Shown here in pieces: positions 15,891 to 44,895 of a stretch of DNA of 64,000 nt. The notes under the pieces were generated by a model. That model had not been told where the DNA came from, made no database searches, and worked only from the letters and a program-made list of their open reading frames with translations. Position 1 is the stretch's first letter. Every line of letters begins with the position of its first letter. Location: NCBI GenBank assembly GCA_020466095.1, contig CM035809.1:2990302-3054301 (forward strand), read 5' to 3'. The translations under genes and the position numbers were made by a program. Origin of the DNA: Chlorops oryzae. Its lineage: Eukaryota > Arthropoda > Insecta > Diptera > Chloropidae.

Positions 15891-16649
15891 TGTTGTGAGT
15901 CTCTCCCAAACTCACATGTGGTCACCTTAAACCGAGAGCAAAAGGCAGTGACCTGCATTTATGAATTTCTACTTCAAGGTGATTCCATGCTACTCAAAAG
16001 CACTGTCCAGCGTAAATTGCTGACAAATGCAAACATGCAGTTCGGCCGCTGGTAACAACAACAACACCGGCACAGTATAAGCACGATTGACAAACATCAG
16101 CACTACAACAGCAAATGCACAATTGCAATTCGATCGCTGGCAACAACAAAAACAACTCCACTAAGTGAACGGAAGTAAAGGCAACAACAACAGTATGGCA
16201 ATGTTGGTACAATTGCAGGTGAAGGTCGCGGTCAAGATTATGCAATATGTTCTGGAAGAATCGACGACGATCGCGGATCATGGGAATATTCAATATTGTA
16301 AGATCAGCAATATTGATCTATAAAAACGGAGCTTCGACGACTGGAAGCTCAGACTCAATCTGAGACTCAACTTCGACTTCTTCTGCGAGCGTACTCACCC
16401 ACGGGCCACGACGTCAGAAGCATAGGGCAGTTTCAAGTTAGGATAAGTAATTCTGTTTAGACCTAAGGATTCAAACCTTAAATAAAAGGATTAAACCTTA
16501 GATAAAATATTTTATTTAAAAGGAAATATAGGAACTATTATTCGCTCGACACTGTCTGAGCGCTTGGTTTCCTATATCTCAGCATTGGAATAAAGGAACG
16601 TTTATACGCTCGACCCCGTCTGAGCGCTTCACTTCCTTAGATTCCAACA
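15891..16649 (+). repeat. 5' LTR
   Basis: 759 bp. It matches 43226-44891 with few substitutions. It has a 73-bp block (about 16039-16111, containing 'acaacaacaacacc') that the 3' LTR lacks, and it lacks the tandem insertion found in the 3' LTR. Its 3' half carries 'cgctcgacactgtctgagcg' and 'cgctcgaccccgtctgagcg', a near-duplicate pair around 16550-16630. Confidence 0.9.
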
Positions 16650-16672
16650 TTATTTGGCGCAGCCGGTTTTCG
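16650..16672 (+). promoter_or_regulatory. Candidate primer binding site
   Basis: 'tggcgcagccgg' begins four bases after the 5' LTR end, where a tRNA 3' end should anneal to prime minus-strand DNA synthesis. Which tRNA is used cannot be settled by eye. Confidence 0.6.
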
Positions 16673-17298
16673 ACTGACTTTCAGTTGGATGAGAACTCAG
16701 TTTTCCTCAAAGCTTTGAACAAAATTATATTGATCGCTATGCAGCTTGGCGCATTTTGCTAAGTTGGAATTGTGTCAATTTTAATTAGCGACTAGTTGCT
16801 ACCACAGGGCAAAAAAGCTTATTATGCTGCATGCGAGATTGTAATTTTTGAGCAAAGATTGTATTGTCAAGGATATCTTGCCAATATATCTGGGCAAAAA
16901 GCTTAGAAGAGATATTGAAACATACATGAACGGCTATAAACGAATTTCGCCTGTGATTGGAATTGTGTCAATTTTAATTAGCGACTAGTTGCTACCAAAA
17001 ACAGCCGATCAATTCATTAGCACGATTGTATGGTAAAACACAGGTCAATATTTTTTAACGCAAGTAAATATTTTTTGAATCCTGGCGTCTGGGCAGAATT
17101 ATTGAAATAATATTTGTTTTACAAGAATCGACGGTAGCAGTTACCAAGCACAAGAAAATTAAATCAACGATTTCACCAAGCAATGTGGCGCAGAATAACG
17201 AAAATTAAAATGGTAAGTACAACAGAAAATTATTTACTATAACCACATTGAGTCCCTGCTTATTATTTTTGATTTTACGGGAAATATAATTAAACCTT
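16673..17298 (+). other. 5' leader of the LTR element
   Basis: Non-coding leader between the primer site and gag. A block of about 39 bp containing 'gcgactagttgctacca' occurs twice, 195 bp apart (16764-16802 and 16959-16997). No splice donor could be assigned with confidence. Confidence 0.6.
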
Positions 17299-19126
17299 AT
17301 GGCCAAAGAACTAGATGCGTTAAAAGACAAACTAAAATTATTCGAAACTGATTCCGAAGAAGTTCTTAGAGAAGCAAGGGAGTTAGCACGAGAATCAATT
17401 TTGAGCAAGGAAATTTCGAAATTAGTAAAGGATCAAGCAGTGCTGGGTCAATTTTCAAAATTAGGGAAAGCTACGTTTTTAATTAATCAAATCAAAAATT
17501 CAGTAAGTGTTGCGGAACAGGCCACAGAGAACAAAATTCAGATATTAGAAGAGTCAATACAGGGTTTAACAAGAGAGTGCAAAAAATTAAGAGCACAGAT
17601 TGACGTACAGAATAATTTGATTGACGAATCTGAAAGGGATAACCAAGAACTAAGAGAATCACTAAGTAAGGCCGTCGGTAATAAGTTAGCAGAAACAGTG
17701 GAAAAAGACAAAGCACGCTTAAAGGAAAGCGAGGAGGAAGTAAGATATTTGAAACAGGAAGTTAAACAGCTTAAGACAGCATTAAAAAACTTTTGTAACA
17801 CCGCAGCCTCTCCTAACCCAGGCCAATCGCGAAAACTAAGGACAACTAGCTCAAACACAGATAATCTCGCTCTCCCCACAGTCCAAAACGTAGTTCCACT
17901 TAACGAAAATTCCTTAACACCCACAACTACTGCTCAGCATATTATTCCTACAATCAAGACAACTAGCCCCAGCACAGATAATCTAACAATCCCAGCATCC
18001 TCCCCATCCCATCATACAATACGTATAAATATGGCCACCAATATGCAGGTAGACGAATTGATGGGAAAAGTAAATAACCTCGTTCCATATTTTTCAGGCA
18101 CTAACAATGCCGATTTATATCTAGAAGTTGATAGATTTGTTAATGGAATTGGATTATTGAAAAGCGTAGTAGGGAACAGCAATATAAGCGACATACTTGG
18201 TTGCATAAAAAACAGACTAGCAGGCAAAGCTTACGAAATTGTCTCAAAGAGAATAATAAACAATCTGGATGAGTTAAATGACGTCATAAAATCAGAATTT
18301 TTGAAAAAACGAAGCTTAGAAACAATCAGATATGAAATTGCATCCGCAAAGCAGCAGAGTACTGAAAAGGTTTCGGAGTTTGGTAGGAAGATAGAATCTT
18401 TATTGCGTGAAGCCGAAGAGCTTATTAGGGAATCGTGGAACCGTACTGAAGCAGTAGCATTGCTACACGACTACCAGAAATTAGGAAAAAAATAAATTTA
18501 TTTTTGGTATTCAGGACCCCTTTTTACGAAACAGACTCGAGGGCGCAGAACATGAATCACTATTTACTCTTATAAAATTAGCGCAGACGACGGAAGAGCG
18601 ACATGAGGAAAATAGTAAAATTGGATATTCTGATCATTTCATAAATAAACAAACCCCAGTAGCCATACATCAAGCTCGGTGTTCATTTTGTAACGTAGAA
18701 GGCCATACTTGGGATGTTTGCGTGCAAAGAAAAAATACGCCCTATTGCGGTAGTTGTGCTCAATATGGGCACACCACTAATGCGCAATGTAACGTAAAGA
18801 ATACTCCCATACAAAATTGCGGTTTTTGCGGAAAAACGGGACACTCCGAAAAAAATTGCTATGCGAAAATTAAAAATTTATTTTGTAACGTCTGTCAGTT
18901 AAAGGGTCATGAAACAAATCCGTACTGCAGGCAGGGGCACAAAAACAAACAAGCTAATCAGAACAATTCACAAACGAGAAATAGCGATCGCAATACTAAT
19001 AACAATCGAAGCGCCCCAACAATGAATAAAGCCATTCAATGTTTTAAATGCTCGCAACCGGGTCATATTGCAAGAAATTGTCCGAATAATCAGGGAAACC
19101 CCTCGCGGCCCGGTCTCGGCCATTAG
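17299..19126 (+). pseudogene. gag: gag (capsid/nucleocapsid) with one frameshift
   Basis: The first frame (17299-18495) starts MAKELDAL. It has a long heptad-like coiled coil, a low-complexity Thr/Pro stretch, then a capsid-like region (about residues 250-398). The frame shifts in the A run at 18484-18491. The second frame runs to 19126 and carries five CCHC-type zinc knuckles, the first at about 18676 ('CSFCNVEGH') and the last 'CFKCSQPGHIARNC' near 19042. Gag packages the element RNA. Five knuckles is more than most insect gypsy elements have. The pol frame follows at -1 relative to this second frame, consistent with ribosomal frameshifting at the gag-pol junction. Confidence 0.8.
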
Positions 19127-19170
19127 ACCGGAATGCCAGCAGCAAACAAGAGTCTCTGAGGCCAATTCAA

Positions 19171-22035
19171 ATGAGAAATTCAGAAAAAGCAATATATAAA
19201 GACGAATTAAAGGAGCTAGATATAAATAAAATTTTTTTAGATGATGTTGACAAAAAAACGATCAGTATAAATTTAAATTGTAATAAATCAGAGAAAAAAA
19301 GAATAATGAGTTCAAGAATCTTAAGTAAAAAAGAACTCTCATTAAAGAAAAATCAAAAGCAAAAGCGAAGAGTGCATTTTAACGAGAATATGAGTTTTCA
19401 TTTTTACGAGAGTTCAATGCCAATTGTAAATGCAGAATCAGAAAAAACGGTTGAAGATAAAAAGAGTAAAAACGAAGATAGAAGTCAATTTCGAAAATTA
19501 TTTTTATCTTTTGTGTTACCTTTTTTAGCAGCCATAAGCGAAAAATTTTCTATTTTGCGCAATCAAACTTGGGAATGGCTAAAAGAACGAAAGAAGCACC
19601 CCTGTAGGAACCTGATTCGAAATAATCCCAAATCTTTTAATAAACAATGTTCAGGCTTAGTGTCAGACGACGCGTTTATAGTATTTCCTAATCGACAAGC
19701 TATAAACGATGAGGTAACTCTGTTAGTGGACACTGGAGCTGACACTAGTTTAATTAAATGGGAAGCGTTAAAAAATGTAAATAACATTTATGAATCGGAA
19801 ACCAAGAGTTTAGTGGGAGCCTTCGGAGGCACCGTTAGGAGTAAAGCAATTATAGACATTGGTCATACAAATAATGAAGAGTTGAATTTTAAGTTTCACG
19901 TTTTACCAAAGGGTAGTAAAATTCCGGGAGATGGACTATTAGGCAGAGATGGGCTCTGGAAAAAATCAGTAATAGATACCATAGATAAAGAAATTAAATT
20001 TTTCAAAAATGGCAAAGAAATTGCTTCACTTCCACTTGTTAGTTCCACTTATAGCAGTCGGGTTTGTACTATTAAGCCAGTCACGATCCGTGCTAGGACA
20101 GCGAGGGCAAGAGAAATATGCGCAGAGAAATTTTCCGGAGAAATCGTTATACAAAAAAGGGAAATTATGCCTAACGTTTTCGTAGGAGGTACAATTACGG
20201 AAATTTTAAAGGGAAAGGGCTATGTGCCAATGTTGAACGCAAATCACACGGATGTTCGAATAGAATCCAGTGAATTAGAATATGACTGTGGCACAGAATT
20301 TGAAAGTTTGGACGTTCCAAACATTAATCAATTACAAGAAGGGTGTAATGAGAATAATCGTTTTAACTTTTTGATGAACGCAGTAAATTTTGATAAAAAT
20401 CTTAATAAAGATGAATTGCATTCCATAAAAAAAATATTTAGAGACTATACCGATATATTTCTTTTGCAAGGAGACAAACTTTCATACACTACGGTATTGA
20501 GTCATGAAATTCCTACGGAAGCAGGAAAAGCCCCAATTAATAGTAGACAGTACAGGCTGCCGGAACATCAAAAAGCGGAAATAAATTCACAGGTTAACAA
20601 AATGTTGGCAGACAACATAATAAAGCCAAGCAAATCACCTTGGAATTCGCCCATAATTTTAGTTCCAAAAAGGACAGGAAAAGATGGCGAGAAAAAATGG
20701 AGACTAGTAGTTGACTTTAGAAAATTAAATGAAATGACTCTTAAACAAGTTTTCCCTATTCCGAGAATAGATGAAATCCTAGATCAATTGGGATGTAGTC
20801 GCTATTTTTCTACACTTGACTTAGCTAGTGGCTACCATCAGGTGGTGGTTGACGAAAAAGATAGACAAAAAACAGCTTTCAGCACAGGTATAGGCCATTT
20901 CGAATTTATAAGAATGCCTTTCGGTCTCACGGGAGCACCAGCAACGTTTCAAAGAATTTTGAATAGTATTTTGACTGGTCTTCAGGGAATTGATTGCTTT
21001 GTTTACCTTGACGACATTGTCATCTACGCCAGAAATTTAGATGAACACGATATTCGACTAAGAAATGTTTTTGACGTTTTAAGGGAAAATAATCTTAAAC
21101 TCCAAACAGAAAAATGTCAATTCCTGAAGAGAGAAGTAGTTTACTTAGGGCACAAATGTTCAGAATCAGGTGTTTTACCTGATCCAGCAAAAGTAGAATC
21201 CGTTAAAAATATTAAACCACCCAAAAATATTAAAGAACTGCAGTCATTTCTCGGCTTAATCAATTATTATAGAAAGTTTATACCCGAGGCAGCCAAAATA
21301 TCCTTACCATTAACAAAATTATTAAGAAAAGAAGAGAAATTTATTTGGAATAAGCATTGCCAAGACGCAATGGAGAAATTGAAAGAAGCAGTGACAAGCC
21401 CCCCTATACTACAATATCCTGATTTTGAAAAGTTATTTATTCTTACAACAGACGCCAGCAACGAAGCATTAGGTGCAGTATTGTCGCAAGGTGAGCCAGG
21501 ACAGGATCTGCCAATATACTATGCGAGTAGGGCACTTAGTGCAACCGAAAAACGATATTCCACGATAGAAAAAGAATTTTTGGCAATAGTTTGGGCAGTT
21601 AAAAATTTTAGAACATACCTATTAGGCAAACATTTCAAAATTTATACCGACCATAAACCACTTAAAGGCATAGCGAATTTAAAAGACCAAGATACCAGAT
21701 TGGGCCGTTTCCGATTGAAACTTTTAGAATACGATTTTGAAATCCTTTACAAACCCGGAAAAAATAACCTTAATGCAGATGCACTAAGTAGACTCCCAAG
21801 TTCAGAAACACCAATAGCAGTAGTAACCAGATCAATTTCAAAAACAAAACCAGAAGAATTCGATACGTCAACAACTGTAAGCCCGAGTGAGAATTATAAC
21901 GAAGATACGGCAGTTGTGCTAACGGATCCAACAGAGATACAAAAAATTATAAAAATTTTCCATGACAGTCCAATAGGAGGCCATAAAGGGTTTTTGAAAA
22001 CATACTTTCGTGTCAGAAAACAATTTAAATGGGAA
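19171..22035 (+). CDS. pol: pol: protease, reverse transcriptase, RNase H and start of integrase
   Basis: Aspartic protease motif 'LLVDTGADTSLI' lies at about residue 186. The RT core includes 'VDFRKLNE' and the catalytic 'FVYLDDIVIYA' near residue 610. RNase H shows 'TTDAS' near 760, 'EKEFLAIVWAV' and 'YTDHKPL'. The integrase zinc region begins with 'HDSPIGGH'. The order PR-RT-RH-IN is that of Ty3/gypsy, and the motifs resemble the 17.6/297 group of insects. The frame is open throughout until the element inserted at 22036; the extra residues after that come from the insertion. Start is the first ATG after the gag stop, though the natural product is probably a gag-pol fusion. Confidence 0.92.
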
Positions 22036-23473
22036 CCCAAGCGACACAGATATCAAATTTGGAGAGTATTCTTAGACATAAAACTCTTTGAATGCTCTTT
22101 AGAAGGTCTTTGGAAAACTTAATGTCTTTGAAAACTCTCTGAAAAGTATAATAAAAACTTAAAAAAATATATTGTCTCAAACAACTCTTTCAAACGTCTT
22201 TAGAATACTTCAAAAATCGTATGTCTTAGAAAGCTCTCAATAAACTCTTTGAACAGCGTCCGAAGACCGATTTCCGATAACGTTTTTTTTAACTCTTCGG
22301 AAACTCTCATATTGGTATTTCAAAGAGGTAACACAAACATATTTAGAAAACTCTTCAAAACACATTTTAAAGAGCTTTGTGAGAGTAGGCCTCTATATTC
22401 CTGTTTATAAAGACCTTTCAGAGATTTTCAGTGACGTCACGTCTTTGGAAACTCTTACAAAGAACTTATTGAGAGGGAATAGTGAGTCATTACATTTTAT
22501 TGTTTGTTTTTGACTTTTTTTTTCATTTACGCAGGGTTGACATTAACAAGTGAGAACCGAAATAACAAAAGCAAAATCAAAATGCAGCTCTTACCAGGGG
22601 TGTTATTTAGCTTGAAACGAAAAAATTCTGATGCAACTCTAAATTTGTCTGCTCATTATTGAGACCTTTAACTCTTCAGAAGGTCTTCAAAAGACATTTG
22701 GAAATCCGCCATATTTTTGGGTCTAAGTTGCATGTTGTTTATTTTTAAACAATCAACCAAAACTTTTTTTATGCTTTATGAAAATGTTGATTTCAAATTA
22801 AAAAGGGAAAATGCCTGAAATAAGTTTTCTATTATTACAGAATAAAATTTAAAAAAAAACGGAAAGAAATTTAAAAAAATAACGATTTTTAAACTTAAAT
22901 ATTTTTGCAAAACATTAATATTTTAAAGGCGCGTGAAAATTTAGTGGGGTAGAATATATCATATTGCCGATGAACTGATATCCGTTTTCATTTTTATGTT
23001 CAAATAATCGAGATATTTCATTACAATTTTTAATATTTTTTTATTACATTATAATCTCCACACGTGTCCTTTTGTGTTCAAAATATTTCCAACATTGAAT
23101 ATGTAGGACGTCTTTTGTGTTTCTTCTTAAAGAAAATGAAATAGGATATATTTTATAAAACGTATGAGCATATTTGCGTCCCTATCACGCACACTGACTG
23201 ATGATGACATAATAATTCAGTCTTTCAAAGAACTCTTAAAGATGTTTTAAAGATCTTTCAAAGAGTTCTCAAAGACTTCCTAGAGAGAAAACTGATTGTT
23301 TTTTAAGTCTCTAAAAACTCTCATAAGGCCCCTAAGCCCCGCCTTTTTGCGTCCTTTTAGTCTTTAGAAGGTCTTCAAGAGCGCTCAAAGAGCTTTTCTG
23401 AGAGCATTAGCTCTCATTAATTAGTCTCTGAGCGCTCTTGAAGACCGTTTAAAGACAAGTTGTGTCGCTTGGG
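22036..23473. mobile_element. Non-coding DNA transposon inserted in integrase, TIR CCCAAGCGACACA
   Basis: CCCAAGCGACACA at 22036 is inverted at the right end (TGTGTCGCTTGGG ending 23473). AA is duplicated outside (22034-22035 and 23474-23475). Removing the element and one AA joins the two integrase parts in the same frame, so the boundaries are exact. Both subterminal regions consist of many variants of 'ctctttgaaa' and 'gtctttaga'. No gene lies inside the 1438 bp. The CCCAAR end and 2-bp duplication match other elements in the window. Confidence 0.85.
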
Positions 23474-23475
23474 AA

Positions 23476-24320
23476 GGCATGCAGAAGCACATAAAGGATT
23501 ACATAGACTCATGCCAACTTTGCCAAAAGAATAAAAGTTCCCGCGTAGAAAAATTTCCTATGGCTATAACCAATACTCCCCACAGACCGTTTGATAAAGT
23601 ATTCATGGATATAGTTGGTCCGCTTCCGCTCTCATCAAGAGGGAATAAATACATACTTACATTTTTAGACGATTTTTCTAAATATTTCATTTGCGTGGCC
23701 ATACCAGATGCCGAAGCATCAACTGTGGCAAGAGCCTTTTTTAATGAAATAATTGCCAAATTTAATATCCCAATGGTGCTCTTGAAAGAAGTCACCGGCC
23801 CCTTGCGGAATTCCTTCGAAATTTTGTCAATGAGGATGGCACGAATTGGGATGAATGGTTGCACCACGCTATGCACGTGCATAACAACACAATACATTCA
23901 TCCACTAAACAAACACCCAGTAGAACACTTTTCGGTTTCGATTTCGAAATTCCAATTAAATTAAAGCATAAACCTGGTCCTTTGTATAATCCCGACGATT
24001 ATAGCAAAATTTTGAAGTACCAAATTCAAAGAAGCTATGAAATTGTTAGACAAAATCAAAAATCTGCAAAAGAAAAGTCAAAGATATATTATGACAAAAA
24101 TTCAAAAGAAAGAAAGTTCAAAATAGGAGATAAAGTTTGGCTAAAAAATCAAAACAGACAAAATAAATTTTCACCCATTTGGGAGGGACCATTTGAAATA
24201 ATTTCCATACCTTCTCCGGCAAATGTACGATTACTTATTAAGGGAAAAAAGAAAACCTACCACAAAAATTTGATAAAATTAGACCATAGTAAAAAGGAGA
24301 AAACGTATATCGTAGAACAT
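23476..24320 (+). pseudogene. Integrase, with an internal deletion and frameshift
   Basis: After the insertion the zinc-binding pair 'CQLCQ' completes the HHCC domain. The first catalytic Asp is in 'VFMDIVGPL'. At about 23774 the frame changes and the stretch that should contain the second catalytic Asp is missing. In the new frame the conserved Glu lies at 23784-23786, then 'DKVWLK' and the GPF-type module 'WEGPFEI' near 24180. Integrase inserts the DNA copy into the host genome; this one should be inactive. The second frame runs straight on into the phosphatase without a stop. Confidence 0.85.
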
Positions 24321-25181
24321 GTAACAACACCAAGGGAAAAGTGTAATCATGAGAGATTAATTTCAAACGATGAAAAGGTTGCGGAAGAATATTTCACTCT
24401 CCCAGAACTAGGGGACCAAGCAAACATAAAAAATTTCCTAAAAAACAAACCAAAAAACAGATACTCAAATGTCCCCTGTCTTGATCACAGTAGGGTGAAA
24501 CTATCTAACAGACATAAGCATGACTACATTCACGCCAATTATGTTGATGGGTTTTTTAGAAAAAAAGAATACATTGCAACACAGGGTCCACTTAAAAATA
24601 CACTAAACGATTTTTGGCAAATGATTTGGGAACAAAACTGTGTTAATATAACCATGCTAACGAAAGTCCTTGAACATGAGCAGGAAAAATGTTACCAATA
24701 TTGGGGAAAGAGAAGAAATGACATAATTAAAACAGAAAACTTCAATGTTAAAACTTTAGACAGAATAGTGAACAGAAATAGTGTTAAATCCCAAATAGAA
24801 TTGAAAAATCTGAAAACAAAACAATCAAGAATCATCAATCATTGGCAATATACAGGTTGGCCCGATAACGGCACACCAAATACATATGCTCTACTAAACT
24901 TCTGGTTACAGATAAAAGCACAGCAAAAAATCTCTGAAAAGAAAAATAAATATTCAAAAATGGTCATACATTGTAGCGCAGGCGTCGGCCGAACCGGCAC
25001 ACTGATTGCGCTGGACATAGCCATTGACACTCTAAGAGCAGGTCTGAAATACAACATTCAAAAAATAATAAATAAAATTCGCCAAGAGCGAGCGCATGCC
25101 GTCAATTGCATCCAACACTACAACTTTTTAGTAAAAGCATTGTCCATTCATTACCTGGCAACCGATAAAAATCAAGAATAA
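24321..25181 (+). CDS. Protein tyrosine phosphatase domain fused to the integrase C-terminus
   Basis: Counting from 23859, residues of about 180-435 form a classical PTP domain. It shows 'KNRYSNVPCLDHSRVKL', 'DYIHANYVDG', 'EYIATQGPL', 'DFWQMIWEQ' and the WPD loop 'GWPDNGTP' (general acid D336). The signature 'HCSAGVGRTGT' has nucleophile C372 and R378. All three catalytic residues are kept. By eye, the Q-loop position usually held by Gln appears as Asn (N416) and the second Gln as His (H420). These enzymes remove phosphate from phosphotyrosine. It is read in the integrase frame with no stop between the integrase C-terminal module and the PTP, so it would be made as part of Pol. It has no introns, as expected of a cDNA capture. 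The source is probably an insect PTP gene, but a viral one is possible. Confidence 0.88.
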   Translation, partial: VTTPREKCNHERLISNDEKVAEEYFTLPELGDQANIKNFLKNKPKNRYSNVPCLDHSRVKLSNRHKHDYIHANYVDGFFRKKEYIATQGPLKNTLNDFWQMIWEQNCVNITMLTKVLEHEQEKCYQYWGKRRNDIIKTENFNVKTLDRIVNRNSVKSQIELKNLKTKQSRIINHWQYTGWPDNGTPNTYALLNFWLQIKAQQKISEKKNKYSKMVIHCSAGVGRTGTLIALDIAIDTLRAGLKYNIQKIINKIRQERAHAVNCIQHYNFLVKALSIHYLATDKNQE

Positions 25182-25243
25182 AACGATGAAGTAAAAGAAA
25201 CGAAAAGCTAGAAAATGATAAGTTTTCCCTTTCCACAAACTGA

Positions 25244-25654: not shown

Positions 25655-25938
25655 ACCACTCATCTCATTGGCTTTATGCAATTTGCAATTATTTTCCCAT
25701 CCAAAAGCAAAACAAAAAAAAAAAAAAAAAAAAAAAAAAAAGCAAAACGTAATTAAATGTAAGAAGTCATACGACAAAAGACGGAAATGCATAAAGGTGT
25801 CAAATATCCAAATGTGGTTTTTCGAGCAAGCAGCAGTAGGGGCTCAATGTTTAATTTTTAGTCTTTTATCTTTCTTTCAGGAAAAATATCAAGCGGAGAG
25901 CAGCGAAAAATCAGCAAGTTGGTATATGCACATCTAAC
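25655..25938 (+). other. Spacer with long A run
   Basis: Lies between the Env-like remnant and the protease gene. It contains an A homopolymer of about 30 nt at 25712-25740 and otherwise no recognised signal. Confidence 0.5.
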
Positions 25939-27244: not shown

Positions 27245-27283
<39 letters not shown>

Positions 27284-27332: not shown

Positions 27333-27897
27333 CCCAGCAAAACAAGCTACCCAGCAGGCAAATATGTCCAGCAGGACAAAGACATCAGTGATTTCACCGA
27401 TTCATATTGGTGACTAGTCACGCATGATCCCTTGAGGGATGTTTCCCCGTAGCAGTCACAGTGTTGTTGACGGAAAGAAACTGATGACAATTATGTATGA
27501 ATGTTGCCAATTTGACGAAAATTATATTTTTGTGAGTGTAAGATATGGAAGTTTATTATTCTTGAATGGTGCATTTCAAATTTTGTTGGTTTTTTACGTA
27601 AAACAAAACAACAACAACAAAATGTGAATATTCTTTGATATTATTTGTATTGTATTATTGTATTATTTGTACATACAATATGAAAAATAGCTGAATAAGG
27701 TAGGTAATTTTAGTTTGGAAGTAGTATATTTTTGATTCACCTAATATAAGATATCATAAGTTGGCAACATTGCAGTCGAGTGATCACATTTCGCAAGTTC
27801 GTGGAAGCGTGGAAGCAAGTTCGTCGAAGTGAAAAAAGAAAATTAAACATAAAAAGTGAGTAAAATATATTCAAATTTAAATAAATCAATCAAAAAA

Positions 27898-29811: not shown

Positions 29812-29938
29812 TTATTATTATTATTATATGGGGGCTCTGTGCGCACCGCGACCCATAATGAATCTATTGTGCTACCCCCAGGGTTGTCTTAATTATTTAT
29901 CCTTAGGCTCTTTATATATTTGAGCACTGTGGACGGTT

Positions 29939-33511: not shown

Positions 33512-33513
33512 GG

Positions 33514-34929: not shown

Positions 34930-35358
34930 AAATGTTCCCACGAGTAATGAGGAAATAAACTGTCACCCGAAGCAGAGCCTCATGCTCCGGGAAGGCTAAA
35001 TAAAACCAGAGGTCGCCATGTATCTGGAGTACGCCGTTTGCGAGGCAGTAACGTTGCAACATCCATCCTGTAGGCACGGTGACGATTAACACCTTTAGGA
35101 TTACGGGTTTTATCGAGTTTTCCTCTCTAGATCCGCCATATTTAGCACAGTTACACAAGCTTCCAGGGAGATGTCCACTGTGCAATACAGAAGACATTAT
35201 CCCAGGAAGCTTGTGTGACCCGCAGGGGCACCTCGAGCAGGATGTGACTCTTCGTCACGTATGGTCGGTCTTAGGGCGTCGTGGACTCCCTCTGGTTCGT
35301 CAGTCACGTCAACGTGTGAACATGGCCAATGAGCCTTAGCCCCCATGGAGAGTCTTTA

Positions 35359-35391
35359 GTAATACTTCCTCTTACGCACAATTTAAATTAA
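35359..35391 (+). pseudogene. Separated last codons of the inner transposase
   Basis: Follows the right copy of the 14-bp duplication. Read in the transposase phase it gives ten residues and a TAA at 35389-35391, comparable in length and character to the C-terminus of the outer transposase. Cut off from the rest of the gene by the non-LTR insertion. Confidence 0.7.
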
Positions 35392-35688
35392 TGCATTGAT
35401 ATTTGCATAGTTCCTATTAAATTCATTTTATGAATTTCGATTCCGCCCACCAAAATCCAACCTCCCGAATGCATTCAAAAATCATCAAGATCATTCAAAC
35501 ACCCACTCAAACATCATTCAAACATAAAATTTCACACATCCATTCACACATCCAATTTCAAATCCGTTCACCAAACACCTTAAATACTTTATATATGTAC
35601 GTAAATCTTTACTAAAGATATTATATAATACAAATATTAATAAATTCATACATGTTGAATATTTTTAGTTAGCCAAATACGATCAAAA

Positions 35689-36725
35689 ATGGAATCTAAA
35701 AGGAGACGTTATTCCATGAAATCTTCTGAGTTTAAAAAATCTCAAAATTTAAATGAAAACGCACATTTTGAATGCACAATCGAAAGTAAGTACATATTAC
35801 ATTTTTTCTAATTATGTACAAATTACTTATGTATATTTTTCATATCTTCTTTAGATGCAATCATCGAAGAACACAATGAAGAGCCTAATTTCGAGAATGC
35901 CAATGCACTTCGATTCAATGAAATGGAAAAAAAAATAATAGGTAAGTTGTTAACATTTTGTTTAATTTCTATTCACTTTTTAACAAAATATTGAATTTAA
36001 ATGTGCATTTCAGACCACATCAATTGCAAAATGGATGCAATTATGAAAATTCAATGCGAAACTTTCTCAACAGTGCAACAATTGGTGAAAAAAAATTTAG
36101 TTGTGCCTCCAAAGATGTTTCCGATAAAAACAGAAGAAGAACTTCACGAAATTAATTTAAAAATGGAGTGTGACGACGAACTATATGTGAGTAAGCTTTA
36201 AAGCATCAAAGCAAACTTCAAAGCCTTATTGGAAACATAAAGATCTTTAGTTTAAATTTTTATGAAGAATGCAAACAAAACCCCAACATATCATATATAT
36301 TATTTAAAAATTTATTTAATTTTTATACAACATTGCATTCACTTCAATTATAATGTTTTTTCATTTTCCGGCACTTTCAGATATCGTCTTTGAAATCGTT
36401 GCTCGGACCAAGCGGAGTAAAAAAGAATCTGGAAAATGTCATAGACATGAAATTAATTCTAAATATGAATTTCGATGGAATTCACGGCAAAAAACCATTC
36501 AAACAGTATCGTGGCTTATATAATGGGATGTATCGTAAGTTAAAATTTTACACAAATTTTCAATATTGCATTAATTACAACAACCTTCTTATATTGCTAG
36601 GAGCTTTGCATTACGAGGGCTTTTCGGAAGCCGAATTTAGAAACGACTTGCGCGCCGCCTTCAAGCTTAATAAAAATAAGCATTTCAAAAGCCAACGCAG
36701 AGCAAAACTTACAAAAACCCAGTAG
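35689..36725 (+). CDS. DUF4806-type accessory protein of the inner transposon, five exons
   Basis: Exons are inferred at 35689-35785, 35855-35941, 36014-36186, 36381-36534 and 36601-36725, all with GT-AG borders. The sum is 636 bp, encoding 211 aa and a stop, with no internal stop. The N-terminus starts MESKRRRYSMKSSEF. The middle is predicted helical. The C-terminal 90 residues match the DUF4806 pattern: 'GIHGKKPFKQYRGLYNGMY' then 'ALHYEGFSEAEFRNDLRAA' and a basic end with 'KHFKSQRR'. DUF4806 proteins are common in insects and of unknown function. Here the gene lies between a transposase and the right terminus, like the DNA-binding helper protein of plant CACTA elements; that role is inference. 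Confidence 0.8.
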
Positions 36726-36784
36726 AGGAAAAATCGTAAACTACCACTCCTTACATTCAAGTTAACACTTTATATAAGTGACAA

Positions 36785-37430
36785 CGATCGAGCTTTATTT
36801 TTGTATTAAATTTTAAAGTAAACCCCAGTTTATGCCAATGAAGAGGCCAGTTAAGTTTTAGAATCTATTAAGTCAACACTGCCTTTATATAACGATAAGG
36901 AACGAGCTTTATTTTTGTATTAAATTTTAAAGTAAACCCTAGTTTATGCCAATGAAGAGGCCAGTTAAGTTTTAGAATCTATTAAGTCAACACTGCCTTT
37001 ATATAACGATAAGGAACGAGCTTTATTTTTGTACTAATTTTTAAAGTAAACCCTAGTTTATGCCAATGAAGAGGCCAGTTAAGTTTTAGAATCTATTAAG
37101 TCAACACTGCCTTTATATAACGATAAGGAACGAGCTTTATTTTTGTATTATATTTTAAAGTAAACCCTAGTTTATGCCAATGAAGAGGCCAGTTAAGTTT
37201 TAGAATCTATTAAGTCAACACTGCCTTTATATAACGATAAGGAACGAGCTTTATTTTTGTACTAATTTTTAAAGTAAACCCTAGTTTATGCCAATGAAGA
37301 GGCCAGTTAAGTTTTAGAATCTATTAAGTCAACACTGCCTTTATATAACGATAAGGAACGAGCTTTATTTTTGTACTAATTTTTAAAGTAAACCCTAGTT
37401 TATGCCAATGAAGAGGCCAGTTAAGTTTTT
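36785..37430 (+). repeat. 116-bp tandem repeat, nearly six units
   Basis: The phrase 'gagctttatttttgta' recurs about every 115-116 bp, with 'atgccaatgaagaggccag' in each unit. Units differ by few bases. It lies after the DUF4806 gene near the right end of the inner transposon, outside the subterminal 'gtcac' repeats. Confidence 0.9.
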
Positions 37431-38215
37431 TTAAGCATTGTTTTTTTTTTAATTTTCATTTTAAATTACATTTTTTTATTTAAACCTTTAATAATACAAA
37501 TAAAAATTAAACTAAAAACTACTGCTCGTTTCATTTCCATTCCGTATCGCTCCCTCCAGCATGACTATGTCCTGCTGGGAGTCACTAGTGACTTTTTCTA
37601 ATTCCACGATGACATGTCACTAATTCAGTCACTGTCAGTTTGTGTACAAATGTCATGCTGCGCGTCATACGAATCGTCATGCATGGCGGATCCAAAGTCA
37701 CCCTGACATCATTGATTCTGTCAGGGGGACATTGCCTGCTGGGTACCTAGATGCACTAATACATATGCATGTTTTCGAACGTCACTCACACATGCAAACA
37801 GGCGGAAACGGAGGCATTTTGGTGATGTTCACATGCCAAAATTGGTACTCGTTGTAAGAAATAATGAAAAACGCATTTCATGGCATTTAATGGCTTTTTA
37901 AGAGTAAAGTTGTCTTAAAAAGTTATAAAAAGAATTATAACATACATGAAAATTAAAATTATCAAAATCTGAGGTTGATTTGGACGAATATTTTTTGCAA
38001 GCACCGAGTACTTTTTTTGTTAATACCAAGTACTTACTTACGAAAAAAAAAATCCTGATCTTACATCTCTAAAATAGTATACATTCATCAAAAGCCACGC
38101 GTTCAAGAGCACATTAAATTTTAAAGTAAGTGAATGTTTTAACTTAATCAATAAAAATACAATATTTTAAATAATTTCTTCCATAAATTATTTTAGGCAG
38201 CAACAAGTAAGTGCC

Positions 38216-40120
38216 ATGAAGAGAAGTACTTTATATTGTTACAAATGGAAGCTAAAGAAGAAGTACGAAAAGGAGAATTGTCGGCCAGAAGATGAAATAA
38301 ATTTGCCAGAAGAGCAGAACGTAGTAACAGAAGAGGAGAACGTGGCAACAGAAGAGAATAGAGCAACAGGAGGAAGCTACGATGAACAGGAATTTACAGC
38401 ACAGGATTTGTATAATTTAGAAAATTTAGGGGAAACAGTAGAAGAAAAAAGTAGCACAATACGGGATGAAGTTAAAAAATGGGCTATACGGAATAATGTG
38501 CCTCATGCACATACCACTGACCTTTTAAAATCATTGGCCAAAGCAGGTGTTTCTGGCCTACCTTCTACCGCAAAAACTCTGCTAGGGGGACATTCACAAA
38601 GAATGCCAAACATTAGACAAATGGAACCTGGCGAATTCTGCTATTACGGCATACAAAACCACTTTTTCGCTAGAATTTACGATTCTTTACGGAATGTAAA
38701 TGAAATTCATTTAGATATTGGTATAGATGGGCTAGCATTGTTTAAAAATTCACGTAGAACACTATGGCCAATTTTAGGTTCCGTTGTAGGTTTTTCAAAC
38801 ATTAAGCCGTTCATTATAGGGTGTTTTTCTGGAATAGGTAAACCTAAATGTCCAAATGATTTTTTAACAGAGTTCGTTGAAGAAGTAAAAAGTCTACAAG
38901 AAAGTGGTGTAAAAATGGGAGACTCCCTTTTTAAAAAATTTTCATTAAGACTTTTCACATGTGATGCACCAGCACGTGCTTTTGTGACAGGCGTTCAATC
39001 TCACACCGGTAAAAATAGTTGTCCAAAATGTTTTCAAAAAGGTACATACACACAAAATAGAGTTTGTTTTTCAAAAATTGTCGCTGAATCCAGAACAGAT
39101 GAAAACTTCACCTTAAGGCAGGATCAAAGTCATCACACAAATTCATTTAAAAATGTTTGTAATATCTTAGAAAGTATAGATGTTAAAATGGTTACACAGT
39201 TTCCAATTGATGCGATGCATTTAATTGATCTTGGAGTAACAAAAAAGTGGTTGCTTTTAGCCTTAAAAAAAACTGACATAGACCGAATGGATGAAAAACT
39301 TTTGATTTTGTCTAATTCAGTTCCATCTGATTTTGGTAGGTCTTGCCGTTCTTTGAAGGATGTTAATATATGGAAAGCAACAGAATTTAGGCAATTTTTA
39401 CTATACAGTGGAATTTATGTTCTCAAAGATAATATAAGTGAAATTTTATACAATAACTTCTTGTTATTGCATACTGCAATAAGGCTTCTGTGTTGTCCGA
39501 AAACTCATATGTCCGAACTAAAAGTTGCCCAAGAGATTTTGGAAGAGTTTGTTCACTCCTTTGGAAATATTTTTGGAGATCATCTAGTTAGTTTCAACGT
39601 ACATGGGTTGCTACATTTAACTGAGTGCGTAAAGCTTTATGGGCCACTTGATAATTTTTCCGCCTATAAATTCGAAAATCATATGCAATATTTAAAAAAA
39701 ATTATTCGCAAACCAAATCAGGTGCTTCAACAAATATTTTATAGAAGTAATGAAATAGATACTAATGAGGAATTCGCAACGACCTCTAATTCACGTTTTC
39801 GTTTTTATGTAGATTTTGTAAAAGAAAAAGATTCGTTCTGTTGCATAAAAAACATTGGGCCAATAAAAGTAGTATCTGTGGGCTCAAAGGATGGTAGAAG
39901 AACAGTTTGGGGGTATCCTTTTCAACATAGCAGAAGCTTTTTCGAATACCCTGTAAATTCATTAAATGCCTTAGGAATTTCAATTGGAAGTAGATTGAAG
40001 GAAAATATGAAGGTTTTTCTAGAAGATGATATATCATACAAATATTTTTCCGCCAATATGCAAAATAAAGAATTTTTGTTGATTCCAATATTACATCAGG
40101 TCTTTCATGCTTTCAACTAG
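38216..40120 (+). CDS. Tnp2-like transposase of the outer transposon, intact
   Basis: 634 aa from the ATG at 38216. Clearly homologous to the inner transposase along its length but well diverged. Blocks: 'IHLDIGIDGLALFKNS' with 'WPILG' near residues 162-185, 'TCDAPARAF' near 249, a C-x2-C pair ('CPKC'), 'FPIDAMHLIDLGVTKKW', 'NVHGLLHL' and 'AYKFENHMQYLKK' (E near 487). The same order occurs in CACTA/EnSpm Tnp2 proteins. The N-terminal 80 residues are Lys/Glu-rich and probably disordered. No stops or frameshifts, so it could still be functional although its own element is split by the inner one at the left end. Confidence 0.85.
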   Translation: MKRSTLYCYKWKLKKKYEKENCRPEDEINLPEEQNVVTEEENVATEENRATGGSYDEQEFTAQDLYNLENLGETVEEKSSTIRDEVKKWAIRNNVPHAHTTDLLKSLAKAGVSGLPSTAKTLLGGHSQRMPNIRQMEPGEFCYYGIQNHFFARIYDSLRNVNEIHLDIGIDGLALFKNSRRTLWPILGSVVGFSNIKPFIIGCFSGIGKPKCPNDFLTEFVEEVKSLQESGVKMGDSLFKKFSLRLFTCDAPARAFVTGVQSHTGKNSCPKCFQKGTYTQNRVCFSKIVAESRTDENFTLRQDQSHHTNSFKNVCNILESIDVKMVTQFPIDAMHLIDLGVTKKWLLLALKKTDIDRMDEKLLILSNSVPSDFGRSCRSLKDVNIWKATEFRQFLLYSGIYVLKDNISEILYNNFLLLHTAIRLLCCPKTHMSELKVAQEILEEFVHSFGNIFGDHLVSFNVHGLLHLTECVKLYGPLDNFSAYKFENHMQYLKKIIRKPNQVLQQIFYRSNEIDTNEEFATTSNSRFRFYVDFVKEKDSFCCIKNIGPIKVVSVGSKDGRRTVWGYPFQHSRSFFEYPVNSLNALGISIGSRLKENMKVFLEDDISYKYFSANMQNKEFLLIPILHQVFHAFN

Positions 40121-40134
40121 ACTTAACATCCGCA

Positions 40135-41476
40135 ATGGCTTCCGGAGATGACAAAAGCTTTCCCATCAAAAAAAGATGCTTTGAAGTATCCATGCCGTAT
40201 GCTAATAGAGGTAAGTCAATGATTTTATAAATTGATATTTTCTTAGGTTACTTCGGAATTTTTGTATTTCGTTTCGTAATTTTATTATAATATTTCTAAA
40301 TATAACAAACTAATAAATTCTTTCTTTTCTTCAGAAAATATTCCGACGTCTAATTTTAATATACTTAATATAAACGCGCCCACAAACACTGTTCAGTATT
40401 CTACGCATACGCACTCCAGCCAACACGGTACTATACCTTTCTTTAGAATATTGTTTAAACTATCACTTAACAATTACGATTTTTCCAGAAATCACAAGCT
40501 TACTCTGTAATATAATAGAGAACCAGAAACGCATGCAGGAGCAGCTTAACAGTGTGCAAACGTTTTGTGATCGGCAACGAGACCTTGACAAAATTCTACG
40601 CGAAAACTTGGTAATATCAAAGGAAACATTTAAAACTGTGAAAAAATTGTTTGGAGAAGGGCTTTCGCAGCTTGAGGAGGAAATGGGAGGTTTTCTGCCA
40701 CTGTCAGCGCTTTGCGAAGCAGAGCAACTAGAAGAAAAACTCAAAGACAAAGCCAACGAAGCTGCAATGGTAACTTTCAAAAATTCAAAATTACCAAATT
40801 TCAAAATACAATCTTTGTTTCACTTTAAAAAAGTTTTGAGTTCTATAATTTTTTCATAAAATGCAACCTTTTTTTATTTTTATTTTAGAAAACTTACTTA
40901 ATAAGTAAAAAGGGAAACCAACCCCTAGATATGCTCTTCAGGAGACTGATAACAGATGAGATTGTGGATTTATATAATTGGGATGGACGATGCGGCAAGA
41001 AAATTCTGAAAAAGTACAAATTGTTTGGAATTGTGTTGCGTGGTGAGTTTTTGCTTAACACAATTAAATTTTTCTCAAGTAATGAAATGGTTCGGAATTG
41101 TAACTTTTATTTCAATCGCTTTATTTGTATATTGCTCTATAAGTATTTCGGCGAATTCGATGATTCCTAATTCATCCTGATGAAGGCGGAAACGAATTTG
41201 CCGAAATACGTATAGAGCAATATACAAATAAAGCGATTGAAATAAAAGTTACAATTCCGAACCATTTCATTACTTGAAATATTTTCAACGCAGCATACTC
41301 GAAAAACACAAAACATAAATTTTTCTCTCTTATAAAAAATTATCTTTAAAGATGTGTACTGCAACTTGGAAACAAAGGAATTCGAGTCCCAAGTTAGGAA
41401 GTCCATTGATTTGGCGCACAACCGGTTCAAACAAAGAAAATTGAAGGATCAGTCCAAATTGGTAGAAGCCGATTGA
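40135..41476 (+). CDS. DUF4806-type accessory protein of the outer transposon, five exons
   Basis: Inferred exons are 40135-40210, 40335-40427, 40489-40769, 40889-41042 and 41352-41476, total 729 bp (242 aa). All junctions are GT-AG and in frame. The third exon encodes a helical, Gln/Glu-rich segment. The last two exons are 154 and 125 bp, exactly as in the inner element, and encode the DUF4806-like end: 'IVDLYNWDGRCGKKILKKY' followed by a Phe/Arg/Lys-rich tail. The start lies 15 bp after the transposase stop, so the two genes may share a transcript. The fourth intron contains a hairpin repeat (41076-41276). Confidence 0.75.
41076..41276. repeat. Long hairpin (arms about 85 bp) in the last intron
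   Basis: 41076-41160 is the inverse of 41192-41276 with only a few mismatches, around a 31-nt loop. The right half contains 'ctgatgaaggcgg' and 'gccgaaa', which resembles the conserved core of a type I hammerhead ribozyme (CUGAUGA, stem II, GAAA), but the other stems could not be confirmed. Palindromic units of this kind occur in Penelope-like and fold-back elements. Confidence 0.75.
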
Positions 41477-42443
41477 ATGGATGCACCTTATATTACTACA
41501 GCAGTATATTAGTTTTTAAATGTTTTATTTTCCCGTTAGAAGTTGGGTTTTTCTTTTATATTTTAGTATGTAAGTTTTTGAATTTTTATTTTCCCCGTAG
41601 ACTTTGTTGTTTTTTCTTGTTTTAAGTTTTTAACTTTTTTTATTTGACATGAAGAATTTGCTTTTTTTCCTTCACTTTTTTCTTTAAAAATAAAATGAAC
41701 TGAACTTTTTATTTACGTAAACTTTTTGTAATTTAATATATAAGTAAAAATGAAGTTATGTAAAACATAAGTCTGAAAACATGCCAATCATTTAATATTG
41801 AAAAAAGGCTGTGATATTTAACCATTATTTACAACTTTTTCTCATAAAAACAAATTTAAGAAGACCTAAAAACGAAATAATCCTTGAAAATTGTGATAGC
41901 ATATAATATAAAAATAGAATACGAATTTTTTTTACTTTAACTATTGAAATAACATGCTTATTTTGTTATGTATTTAAATATTTTTTATTATATTTTGAAA
42001 TAAAAAAAAAACAATTAAATTGCATTCTTTGAAATTTTTATATACACATATGGTGAGAAGGTATAATGTGGATTTAATACGCTTATATTATGCATAAAAT
42101 ATTTCTTCAATACGCGTATTGTACATATATAATACGCATTTCATACGCGAAATACATTTCTTAAAAACTCGTATAATGCATGCAATACAATTCTTCAATA
42201 CCCGCATTGGGCACATTAAATACGCATATAATCCGTGTTTAATATGTCAATAATGTTTAGCCACCATGAGTTGAAAAGAGATGACCAAATATAGATATCA
42301 TACAAGTTAGAGCGAGAGCGCTGCTACATGCATACAAAACAATCAAGTATAAATCTCTATTCGCCCATTTACGTTTGACTAAGAGAATATGCGTATCGCT
42401 ACGGGTTTTGAACTACTTTAATATGCGTACTTTCTTTGTTGGG
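41477..42443 (+). repeat. 3' non-coding and subterminal repeats of the outer transposon
   Basis: AT-rich. From about 42060 to 42430 variants of 'aatacgcgtattg' and 'aatacgcatat' occur at least seven times in both orientations, ending at the terminal repeat. Such arrays are candidate transposase binding sites. Confidence 0.65.
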
Positions 42444-42445
42444 TA

Positions 42446-43225
42446 ACAAAACTTTTGTTTTTGAAACTCTTATAAAGAAAGCACAATTTAAGAAAAGTAA
42501 TGAAAAAAAAAAAAAAAAAAGTATTATAAAAGAAAATTTGAAATTGAACAATAAAAAGTAAATGATAAAGTATATATAATTGTTAAACAAGCTGCAAGAA
42601 AATGAATTCAAAACATTATATAGATAATAAGAAAATATACTATTAATTAATTTTATATATTAGATTTAAGCCCAAAGAATGGCGTGGATACGCACTATCG
42701 AAACAGCGGGAGTATCGCTTAAACAACAGCAGTGGTATACATCGAACACGCATCGACATAAATTTCACGATTCATCATTTGCCTAAAAACAACGTCTTCA
42801 CCAGCATTAGGCAAACATCTAAAACTCTTAACAACCATTAAAAGACAATCACCTTAAACGCTTCAACATTGTCTCCTTTGAATCATGAAGCAACCGAGCA
42901 ACAGTAACGATGCATACTGTACACATCATATGTTAACATTTTTCGTTCATTCATATCGTATGCAACTAATACGCGACTTCATTAAGAAGGGGAAAGGAGG
43001 GAGTCAAGGTTGCCCCTCAATTAAAAGTTCTGAACAATCTGCCTGCATTATTTTTCTTCAAACAACGTCTATGTGATAACAACTTTCAACAGCAACATTA
43101 ACATGAAAATCATCTAGTAAAATCTCAACCGCCGCAGTTTAATCGAACTGATGCATGACAAAAAAACATCCAGTTCGGAGTTTTCTATCGTCGCCTTGTT
43201 GCAACTTTCTTCAAAGGGGGAGGGA
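42446..43225 (+). other. Non-coding 3' region of the LTR element, right part, with polypurine tract
   Basis: Resumes the LTR element after the nested transposons. No gene of confidence. It ends in 'aaagggggaggga' (43213-43225), a polypurine tract directly next to the 3' LTR, where plus-strand synthesis would be primed. Confidence 0.75.
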
Positions 43226-44891
43226 TGTTGTGAGTCTCTCCCAAACTCACATGTGGTCACCTTAAACCGAGAGCAAAAGGCAGTGACCTGCATTTATGAA
43301 TTTCTACTTCAAGGTGATTCCATTCTACTCAAAAGCACTGTCCAGCGTAAATTGCTGACAAATGCAAACATGCAAACAGCAAATGCACAATTGCAATTCG
43401 ATCGCTGGCAACAACAAAAACAACTCCACTAAGTGAACGGAAGTAAAGGCAACAACAACAGTATGGCAATGTTGGTACAATTGCAGGTGAAGGTCGCGGT
43501 CAAGATTATGCAATATGTTCTGGAAGAATCGACGACGATCGCGGATCATGGGAATATTCAATATTGTAAGATCAGCAATATTGATCTATAAAAACGGAGC
43601 TTCGACGACTGGAAGCTCAGACTCAATCTGAGACTCAACTTCGACTTCTTCTGCGAGCGTACTCACCCACGGGCCACGACGTCAGAAGCATAGGGCAGTT
43701 TCAAGTTAGGATAAGTAATTCTGTTTAGACCTAAGGATTCAAACCTTAAATAAAAGGATTAAACCTTAGATAAAATCTAATTCAATTGCCAAAAATTACA
43801 TTTTTCACTATAAGCGAAAAATGAGAGACCAAAAAGCCCAAATAACAATTCAAAAATGAAATATTCAGATGGTCAAAAAATAACAATTAACAATAAGGCG
43901 GGCACGCCAATGGTGTATATATATGCACAATTTAGCCGACCTACCTCACATCGCTGAGGTGGTCAGAGTGGCTAAGGTGTTGGTTAAAGATACCTGATGA
44001 TGAACCTGTAAGCTAGGTTCGAAACCGGTCGTATCGGCTTTCCACACTTCTCGGCAATTTATGAAAAATAAATTTTTTCAATTGCCAAAAATTACATTTT
44101 TCACTATAAGCGAAAAATGAGAGACCAAAAAGCCCAAATAACAATTCAAAAATGAAATATTCAGATGGTCAAAAAATAACAATTAACAATAAGGCGGGCA
44201 CGCCAATGGTGTATATATATGCACAATTTAGCCGACCTACCTCACATCGCTGAGGTGGTCAGAGTGGCTAAGGTGTTGGTTAAAGATACCTGATGATGAA
44301 CCTGTAAGCTAGGTTCGAAACCGGTCGTATCGGCTTTCCACACTTCTCGGCAATTTATGAAAAATAAATTTTTTCAATTGCCAAAAATTACATTTTTCAC
44401 TATAAGCGAAAAATGAGAGACCAAAAAGCCCAAATAACAATTCAAAAATGAAATATTCAGATGGTCAAAAAATAACAATTAACAATAAGGCGGGCACGCC
44501 AATGGTGTATATATATGCACAATTTAGCCGACCTACCTCACATCGCTGAGGTGGTCAGAGTGGCTAAGGTGTTGGTTAAAGATACCTGATGATGAACCTG
44601 TAAGCTAGGTTCGAAACCGGTCGTATCGGCTTTCCACACTTCTCGGCAATTTATGAAAAATAAATTTTTTCAATTGCCAAAAATTACATTTTTCACTATA
44701 AGCGAAAAATGAGAGACCAAAAAGCCCAAATAACAATTCAAAAATAAAATCTTTTATTTAAAAGGAAATATAGGAACTATTATACGCTCGACACTGTCTG
44801 AGCGCTTGGTTTCCTATATCTCAGCATTGGAATAAAGGAACGTTTATACGCTCGACCCCGTCTGAGCGCTTCACTTCCTTAGATTCCAACA
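43226..44891 (+). repeat. 3' LTR with tandem insertion
   Basis: Same sequence as the 5' LTR from TGTTGTGAG to CCAACA, minus a 73-bp block. A 966-bp insertion (43779-44744) enlarges it to 1666 bp. Followed by AAGT, the duplicated target. Confidence 0.9.
43779..44744 (+). repeat. 296-bp tandem array with tRNA-like segment, inserted in the LTR
   Basis: Units start at 43783, 44079 and 44375, with a partial fourth at 44671. The spacing is exactly 296 bp and the units look identical. Each holds a tRNA-like segment with A box 'tggtcagagtggctaagg' and B box 'ggttcgaaacc', best matching a type II (Leu/Ser-like) layout. TAAAATCT is duplicated on both sides (43771-43778 and 44745-44752). The 5' LTR is uninterrupted at this point, so the array was acquired after integration or only by this LTR. 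Confidence 0.8.
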
Positions 44892-44895
44892 AAGT

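Follow-up and report, generated by a model that had tools for sequence, protein, structure and literature searches.

The closest described relatives of the element reported here are the errantiviruses, the gypsy retroviruses of insects, with which it shares long terminal repeats (LTRs), a 4-bp target-site duplication, gag, pol and, in the relative at locus L009, a Baculo_F-like Env. To our knowledge, neither a protein tyrosine phosphatase (PTP) nor a C48 protease is a standard part of an errantivirus. Positions 15891-44891 of the analyzed 64,000-nucleotide stretch of Chlorops oryzae DNA (hereafter the window; C4:2990302-3054301 in genome coordinates) were found to be a damaged and relatively young copy of an LTR element of errantivirus-like type (gypsy, Metaviridae) in which, unlike in errantiviruses, Pol ends in a PTP domain and a C48 protease sits behind Env. 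Literature searches of open-access PubMed Central papers yielded no report of PTP or C48 in an errantivirus. The word "phosphatase" is absent from the main text of a study of insect endogenous retroviruses (PMC12992720) and from that of a paper on MDG1 elements, which lack Env (PMC11952523), and passages of three further papers deal with baculovirus, bracovirus or human PTPs and place no PTP in an LTR element (PMC5704228, PMC3856412, PMC5016936).

Two groups of insect DNA viruses offer the nearest parallels for the phosphatase. Like the PTPs of polydnaviruses (bracoviruses and ichnoviruses), the element PTP is a single classical PTP domain in an insect virus; the structural model of the window PTP matched a Microplitis bracovirus PTP with a template modeling score (TM-score) of 0.92, the top match being F4ZGM5 (0.93), and its sequence was 37% identical to a Cotesia vestalis bracovirus PTP. 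The polydnavirus PTPs are separate genes of DNA circles, whereas the element PTP is a Pol domain. The baculovirus ptp, which is of the dual-specificity type, is likewise an independent gene, belonging to a DNA virus, in contrast to the Pol domain found here. Host signaling and hemocyte behavior are the presumed targets of polydnavirus PTPs, those of bracoviruses being known or proposed effectors (PMC3573978), and the baculovirus enzyme, also a host phosphatase captured by an insect virus, is virion-associated (PMC3320614).

Additional enzymes have also been described in mobile elements. Orchid Gypsy elements have likewise fixed an extra catalytic domain, the RNA demethylase AlkB, but it forms a separate open reading frame (ORF) in a plant host, and no phosphatase is named in section 12 of that report (PMC9289625). 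Bdelloid LTR elements possess extra ORF3 enzymes behind pol that are common to different retroelement types, namely GDSL esterase, DEDDy exonuclease and dUTPase rather than PTP or C48 (PMC5408684). The Ulp1/C48 protease is known from Ginger, Mutator and Crypton DNA elements (PMC2836005, PMC3212892), and the authors of the Ginger study suggested that Ulp1 domains may take part in transposition (PMC2836005). In Ginger1 the C48 domain follows a gypsy-type integrase (PMC2836005, PMC3212892), whereas the present element encodes C48 in an ORF apart from pol and has the PTP as the tail of its integrase; furthermore, Ginger1 and the C48-bearing Cryptons are DNA transposons, unlike this LTR element. 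Extra enzymes in LTR elements (AlkB, esterase, exonuclease, dUTPase) are already known, and the occurrence of PTP and C48 in an errantivirus-like element is new among the literature searched.

The PTP domain forms the C-terminus of Pol

As shown in Table 1, the integrase C-terminus and the PTP were encoded in one uninterrupted frame, and thus the window PTP is a C-terminal Pol domain behind the integrase rather than a separate gene. An earlier reading of the window, made from its sequence only (the sequence-only reading), had noted an intact-looking PTP within the LTRs on the element strand; the domain was indeed complete, while its status as an independent gene gave way to the fusion with integrase. 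The WPD motif was located at 24858-24866 and the signature HCSAGVGR at 24969-24992, with Asn where the Gln of the second catalytic step is expected. The structural model of the PTP was of high confidence (predicted local distance difference test, pLDDT, 94; predicted TM-score, pTM, 0.91) and gave TM-scores of 0.84-0.91 against the 50 solved PTPs listed, PTPN9, VE-PTP and PTPRG being among the first. Sequence and model thus displayed the features of a classical PTP, namely the fold, HCx5R and the WPD-loop Asp. A single-sequence fold of the whole 471-aa frame reached a pLDDT of 33 and was set aside.

Recurrence of the Pol-PTP arrangement in the genome

A genome search with the Pfam profile PF00102 gave 151 matches from the best-scored of 596 candidates, some of them host genes, and at least 31 of these matches lay in stop-free stretches of frames longer than 1500 aa. 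When the window PTP served as query, 150 rows were listed (565 candidates), of which 32 showed at least 91% identity, two of the 32 being adjoining pieces of one place; the window-family PTPs included stop-free frames of 1542, 1583, 1587 and 1587 aa. Twenty-six distinct PTP-bearing places, picked from the PTP ranking, were fetched, and integrase and PTP shared a frame in 22 of them, distributed over seven families, with linkers of 25-42 aa. The families were assigned by eye from the PTPs: A (the window), B (L003-L008 and L012-L017), C (L009, L022, L026 and L029), D (L010, L011, L025, L027, L028, L030 and L031), E (L018), F (L019, L021 and L023) and G (L020 and L024). Since the arrangement recurs across the genome, chance was ruled out as its origin.

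Copies bearing the same LTR were also surveyed. The search with the window LTR listed 40 matches at 98-100%, own 5' LTR included, of 1289 candidates, and among these 40 there were 12 neighbor pairs no more than 30 kb apart; the enlarged 3' LTR of the window was not among them. One pair, C1:91650449-91671583, enclosed a C48 protease as well as a PTP listed at 100% identity, and another, on C331, enclosed a shortened PTP with 98.9% identity over 87 residues (L037). The sequence-only reading had held that copies of this LTR family with a plain env and neither PTP nor C48 would reduce the extra genes to a one-off insertion or an assembly join. The C1 copy spoke against such an outcome, and this second copy between same-family LTRs, together with the genome-wide recurrence, supported PTP and C48 as enduring components of the element.

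Env and C48 protease downstream of the PTP

The one-transmembrane protein downstream of the integrase, proposed earlier to be an Env remnant, aligned with residues 373-504 of the 509-aa L009 Env (132 columns, 58%), in good agreement with that proposal. The L009 Env matched Pfam Baculo_F (E 5.9e-7; 28.9 bits, cut-off 24.1), and the window stump had no Pfam match of its own. The Ulp1-like protease reported inside the LTRs was likewise recognized, by Pfam and by its catalytic signatures, as a C48 domain similar in sequence to SENP and Ulp proteases; its frame is broken by one in-frame stop at 26344-26346.

Approximately 6 kb behind the PTP was readable in 23 of the 26 fetched places, where Env followed by C48 was found in eight, Env alone in two, C48 alone in four and neither in nine, although this survey could have overlooked an Env or C48 of strong divergence. 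The suggestion that the captured enzymes had replaced most of env was thus not supported, and the PTP as an Env replacement was rejected, since Env and PTP occur together in other copies (Env matches in 10 of the 23). Family D showed no Env or C48 match in any of its seven loci, six of which have frames of 1507-1618 aa, so that the PTP persists in a family in which no Env was seen.

Downstream of six window-family PTPs, out of the 32, a C48 was listed, at a spacing of 854-882 nt in two, 2940-2967 nt in three and 2994 nt in one, the PTP match of the last ending at residue 139. The gap of 2940-2994 nt leaves room for Env, whereas that of the window is about 840 nt; the window copy thus has, like the two at 854-882 nt, the short, Env-deleted form.

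C48 was not confined to PTP-bearing loci. L032, L033 and L035 have C48 and no PTP match, and in L034, also without a PTP match, C48 directly follows the integrase and precedes a weak match to Env that is truncated where the locus stops. The reverse transcriptase (RT) of L034 was 71-75% identical to that of the window, and those of L032, L033 and L035 were 33-46% identical over pieces. C48 thus occurs in at least three Pol lineages with varying placement, and its presence in gypsy lineages without a PTP match suggests that it is older or more mobile than the PTP here.

Active site and sequence constraint of the PTP

The active-site alignment comprised 30 element rows (27 distinct places) and 42 others. 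The His, Cys and Arg of HCx5R and the WPD-loop Asp were retained in all 30 element rows, family D reading WAD and HCAAGIGRTC. The Gln of the QTxxQ motif, Q262 in PTP1B, from which its role is known, serves the second catalytic step. At this place the element rows carry Asn (families A, C and G), Ser (B and E), Thr (F) or Pro (D). The RT-integrase-PTP protein P0121 described below carries Thr, and the three bracovirus-type PTPs (P0146, P0147 and P0149) also lack the Gln (3/3), having Ile, Pro and Leu; among the remaining 38 rows, 37 have a residue at this place, which is Gln in 32. The element PTPs thus keep the residues that form the phosphoenzyme without the one that speeds its release, and may be slow enzymes or traps.

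Sequence constraint was assessed by Nei-Gojobori counts with a custom script. Between families, the ratio of nonsynonymous to synonymous differences (pN/pS) spanned 0.05-0.14 in RT, 0.07-0.19 in the integrase C-terminus, 0.22-0.34 in Env, 0.26-0.55 in the PTP and 0.48-0.50 in C48, these being rough upper values with synonymous sites saturated in most between-family pairs. Pairwise PTP identity across families was 44-67%. Within families, where pairwise values lack independence and some of the copies are damaged, the PTP ratio was 0.16 in B (66 pairs), 0.36 in C (6), 0.27 in D (21), 0.28 in F (3) and 0.63 in G (1), and that of the integrase C-terminus was 0.48 in B, 0.57 in C, 0.11 in D and 0.14 in G. 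The comparison of the PTP across copies that had been proposed from the window thus revealed constraint, and between families the PTP is constrained yet changes several times faster than RT, like Env.

Descent of the PTP

The PTP tree comprised 55 rows, 13 of them from elements, with few arthropods and no row named PTPN9. The 13 element PTPs formed one clade (support 97/95), so that the phylogeny called for by the sequence-only reading pointed to a single capture in this genome. The two-domain receptor PTP of the host, L001, grouped with its counterpart from Clunio (Diptera; 100/95), and the approximately unbiased (AU) test rejected joining the element PTPs with the host gene L002 (p 0.00025). 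Union with the bracovirus-type PTPs was not rejected (p-AU 0.145), and PTPN9 was the best match among the listed solved single-domain PTPs for the window PTP and a bracovirus PTP alike. The absence of the second-step Gln from both groups may reflect either descent or convergence.

A comparable fusion was found in P0121, a 1622-aa protein of a Joint Genome Institute (JGI) metagenome (contig of 7035 bases) that combines RT, RNase H, integrase and PTP; its RT was 71% and its integrase C-terminus 63% identical to those of the window. Its PTP, however, lay outside the other groups in the tree with at most 39% identity to any row, and on the RT tree, which contained no named errantivirus rows, P0124, a protein without a PTP domain, grouped with the PTP families of this genome apart from P0121 (92/99, not starred). 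These placements would suit two independent captures by related Pol lineages, which would imply a recurrent advantage and is compatible with any of the roles considered below. On the other hand, a single clade of all fusions including P0121 was not rejected (p-AU 0.387), P0121 sits on a long branch, a PTP domain may have been lost from P0124, and the loss of the second-step Gln is common to P0121 and the element PTPs. One gain plus loss, or two captures, are both possible on these trees, and we consider the latter a serious prospect of less than even probability.

Possible roles of the PTP

We consider that an errantivirus-like lineage captured a classical PTP, which was fused in frame to the integrase C-terminus, is packaged and acts on phosphotyrosine proteins of the host, and assign this reading a probability of about 0.55. 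Lying in frame behind the integrase, the PTP would be expected as the tail of Gag-Pol and hence to be carried into the particle, where it might be either freed by viral proteolysis or remain tethered to integrase. Its targets could then be tyrosine-phosphorylated proteins of the host, either in the cell that produces the particle or in one newly entered, with the PTP dephosphorylating them or, with the Gln lost, holding them, and thereby favoring assembly, entry or soma-to-germline passage. Judged by analogy, a host-directed action of the PTP seems most likely.

Several observations weigh against this reading. The second-step Gln is missing in 30 of 30 element rows, and turnover may therefore be slow or nil. 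Integrase and PTP were out of frame in four of the 26 places (L006, L014, L016 and L021), the PTP evolves faster than RT (dN 0.21-0.55 versus 0.02-0.13), and the within-family ratios prove little, given the values of the integrase C-terminus in families B and C. The PTP-less P0124 counts in the same direction, and the fetched sample cannot show how many gypsy elements are without PTP. In addition, ten LTR pairs of the window's family, 6.1-7.5 kb in length, held no listed window-family PTP or C48; this tells against a need for the PTP in each copy, and many have spread without it. The recurrence of these genes in same-LTR copies, raised as a check in the sequence-only reading, therefore held for the copy on C1 and failed for these ten. 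Such pairs (e.g., C1:104592110-104599591) are probably deletion derivatives moved in trans; one pair of this size, of which the last 2.2 kb was sampled, kept the element's own 3' region and gave no C48 match, as in a deletion derivative.

In a possible alternative, appreciably less probable than the host-directed enzyme, the PTP would extend integrase as a binding or structural module that may hold phosphotyrosine or another partner of the host and might, for instance, direct integration or packaging, with catalysis not selected. A targeting module, such as a chromodomain, would be in its place at the end of integrase, and the loss of the second-step Gln in all element rows as well as the WAD and HCAAGIGRTC of family D point the same way. 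The baculovirus PTP works as a structural protein of the virion with no need for its activity (PMC3320614), and inactive bracovirus PTPs were proposed to trap phosphorylated proteins (PMC3573978). A pure binder, however, need not have kept the first-step Cys, Arg and Asp in all 30 rows at the identity of 44-67% between families. Action on the element's own proteins (Gag, integrase or the Env tail) after cleavage from Pol, serving particle maturation rather than host signaling, appears unlikely: the PTP is produced next to integrase with linkers between, but PTP, Env and C48 outpace RT in change, as host-facing proteins often do, and we know of no tyrosine-phosphorylated Gag in these elements. 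The window copy, being broken and laden with nested insertions, might by itself have suggested that a host PTP and a protease came to lie behind pol through a single, isolated insertion or a false join in the assembly. We regard this as refuted by the recurrence at the same site in 26 fetched places, the single PTP clade, the second copy, in which LTRs of this family enclose PTP and C48 alike, the P0121 fusion elsewhere and the rejected grouping with the host gene L002.

A more elaborate version of the host-directed reading is offered tentatively, as doubtful but worth stating: a Pol-borne PTP, brought along with integrase by every particle and tuned by the Gln loss, as in bracoviruses, to a slow or substrate-holding form, would act with a de-SUMOylating protease as a two-enzyme accessory set that resets tyrosine signaling of the entered cell and undoes silencing dependent on the small ubiquitin-like modifier (SUMO), kept where Env is not seen and possibly captured twice. 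Because SUMO is used in silencing guided by PIWI-interacting RNAs in Drosophila, the C48 protease could remove SUMO from host silencing or nuclear proteins, and its presence in three or more gypsy lineages within a single genome would point to SUMO as a recurrent host-virus interface. Vertebrate retroviruses capture kinases as oncogenes, losing replication, and the fixation of a phosphatase in the Pol of many families would mirror that capture. Retroelements would thereby join the polydnaviruses and baculoviruses as PTP-using viruses of insects, and this would raise the testable question of what tyrosine signaling does for insect endogenous retroviruses. The same Gln lost in the element PTPs, P0121 and the bracovirus-type PTPs is a concrete lead on the mechanism of such viral PTPs.

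Organization of the window copy

The features of the window copy are summarized in Table 1.

Table 1. Features of the element copy and its insertions (window coordinates)
Feature	Position	Strand	Basis
Target-site duplication AAGT, left	15887-15890		Sequence; equals 44892-44895
5' LTR, TG...CA	15891-16649	+	Alignment with 3' LTR; genome matches
gag, first part	17290-18495	+	Resembles gag frames of other loci
gag, nucleocapsid part with zinc knuckles, different frame	18485-19126	+	Zinc knuckle E 5.5e-7
pol: protease, RT, RNase H, integrase start (H2C2)	19090-22122	+	Pfam
Insert within integrase, flanked by terminal inverted repeats	22036-23473		13-bp perfect inverted termini; zinc-binding profile split around insert
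pol: integrase zinc-binding end and core	23425-23964	+	Pfam
pol: integrase C-terminus in frame with PTP	23766-25181	+	Single 471-aa frame
Classical PTP catalytic domain	24411-25178	+	Pfam Y_phosphatase E 3.4e-72; confident model; motifs
Env remnant, C-terminal stump, one hydrophobic segment	25244-25654	+	58% to L009 Env residues 373-504
C48/Ulp1-like protease	25855-26760	+	Two Pfam matches above cut-off; His, Asp, Gln, Cys signatures
Nested 15.1-kb insertion, not part of the element	27333-42443		Missing at matching place in L037 and L038
LINE (long interspersed nuclear element): endonuclease, RT, RNase H, plus DUF4780 ORF, nested in the 15.1-kb insertion	29939-35254	-	Profile matches
Element's own 3' region, ending in polypurine tract	42444-43225	+	93% (L037) and 91% (L038) matches
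3' LTR, TG...CA, enlarged by tandem 296-bp unit	43226-44891	+	Alignment with 5' LTR
Target-site duplication AAGT, right	44892-44895		Sequence

The gypsy-type hallmarks, namely LTRs, a short target-site duplication and a polypurine tract (a run at 43213-43225 adjoining the 3' LTR), were all present in the window, and together with gag and pol they corroborated what the sequence-only reading had described. The LTRs aligned in blocks of 402, 149 and 148 nt with zero, one and two mismatches, respectively (99.6% alike), and these three mismatches indicated a young insertion. Relative to the 5' LTR, the 3' LTR is without 67 nt and gains the tandem 296-bp unit. This unit is repeated head-to-tail at 43781-44743, its copies being identical across the stretches compared, and part of it resembles a tRNA-derived short interspersed nuclear element (SINE) by eye; its identification as a tRNA gene was dropped, as ARAGORN and Rfam gave no match.

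The gag of the window is spread over two frames, and its first part was 36% identical to the gag frame of L034 and 45-59% identical over parts of those of L017, L018 and L023. The domain order of pol (protease, RT, RNase H, integrase) is as in gypsy-type Metaviridae, the integrase of the window being interrupted by a 1.4-kb insert that has many short repeats inside. By RT, the window pairs with L019, whereas on the PTP tree it pairs with L020 and L024, which its integrase C-terminus also resembles most (89-90%); these different nearest families point to recombination within pol between families. In L018, a further copy of the integrase C-terminus was observed downstream of the PTP (3783-4328), representing a duplication or a nested copy.

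Nested insertions and neighboring repeats

The 29-kb length of the element is due to the nested insertion between the C48 protease and the own 3' region. In L037, and likewise in L038, the sequences to its left and right are contiguous. The insertion has TA on both sides and short, imperfect inverted ends, CCCAGCAAAA... and ...TTTGTTGGG. It contains two ORFs resembling Transposase_21/DUF4218 (27853-29892 and 38171-40120), which were 37% alike, had weak Pfam matches below the cut-off and were not matched in the 36 other loci compared. They were rejected as element genes, since L037 and L038 are without this block at the matching place, and the whole insertion may be a single large DNA transposon that encodes two transposases. 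An ORF without a Pfam match (40374-40859) and a 114-bp satellite (36666-37535) also lie within it.

Outside the element, a 666-aa hAT-transposase-like ORF with a weak Pfam match was observed at 7369-9369, and a 127-bp tandem repeat was present at 50426-51187 of the window, a repeat of equal period being found in L011 (3435-3911).

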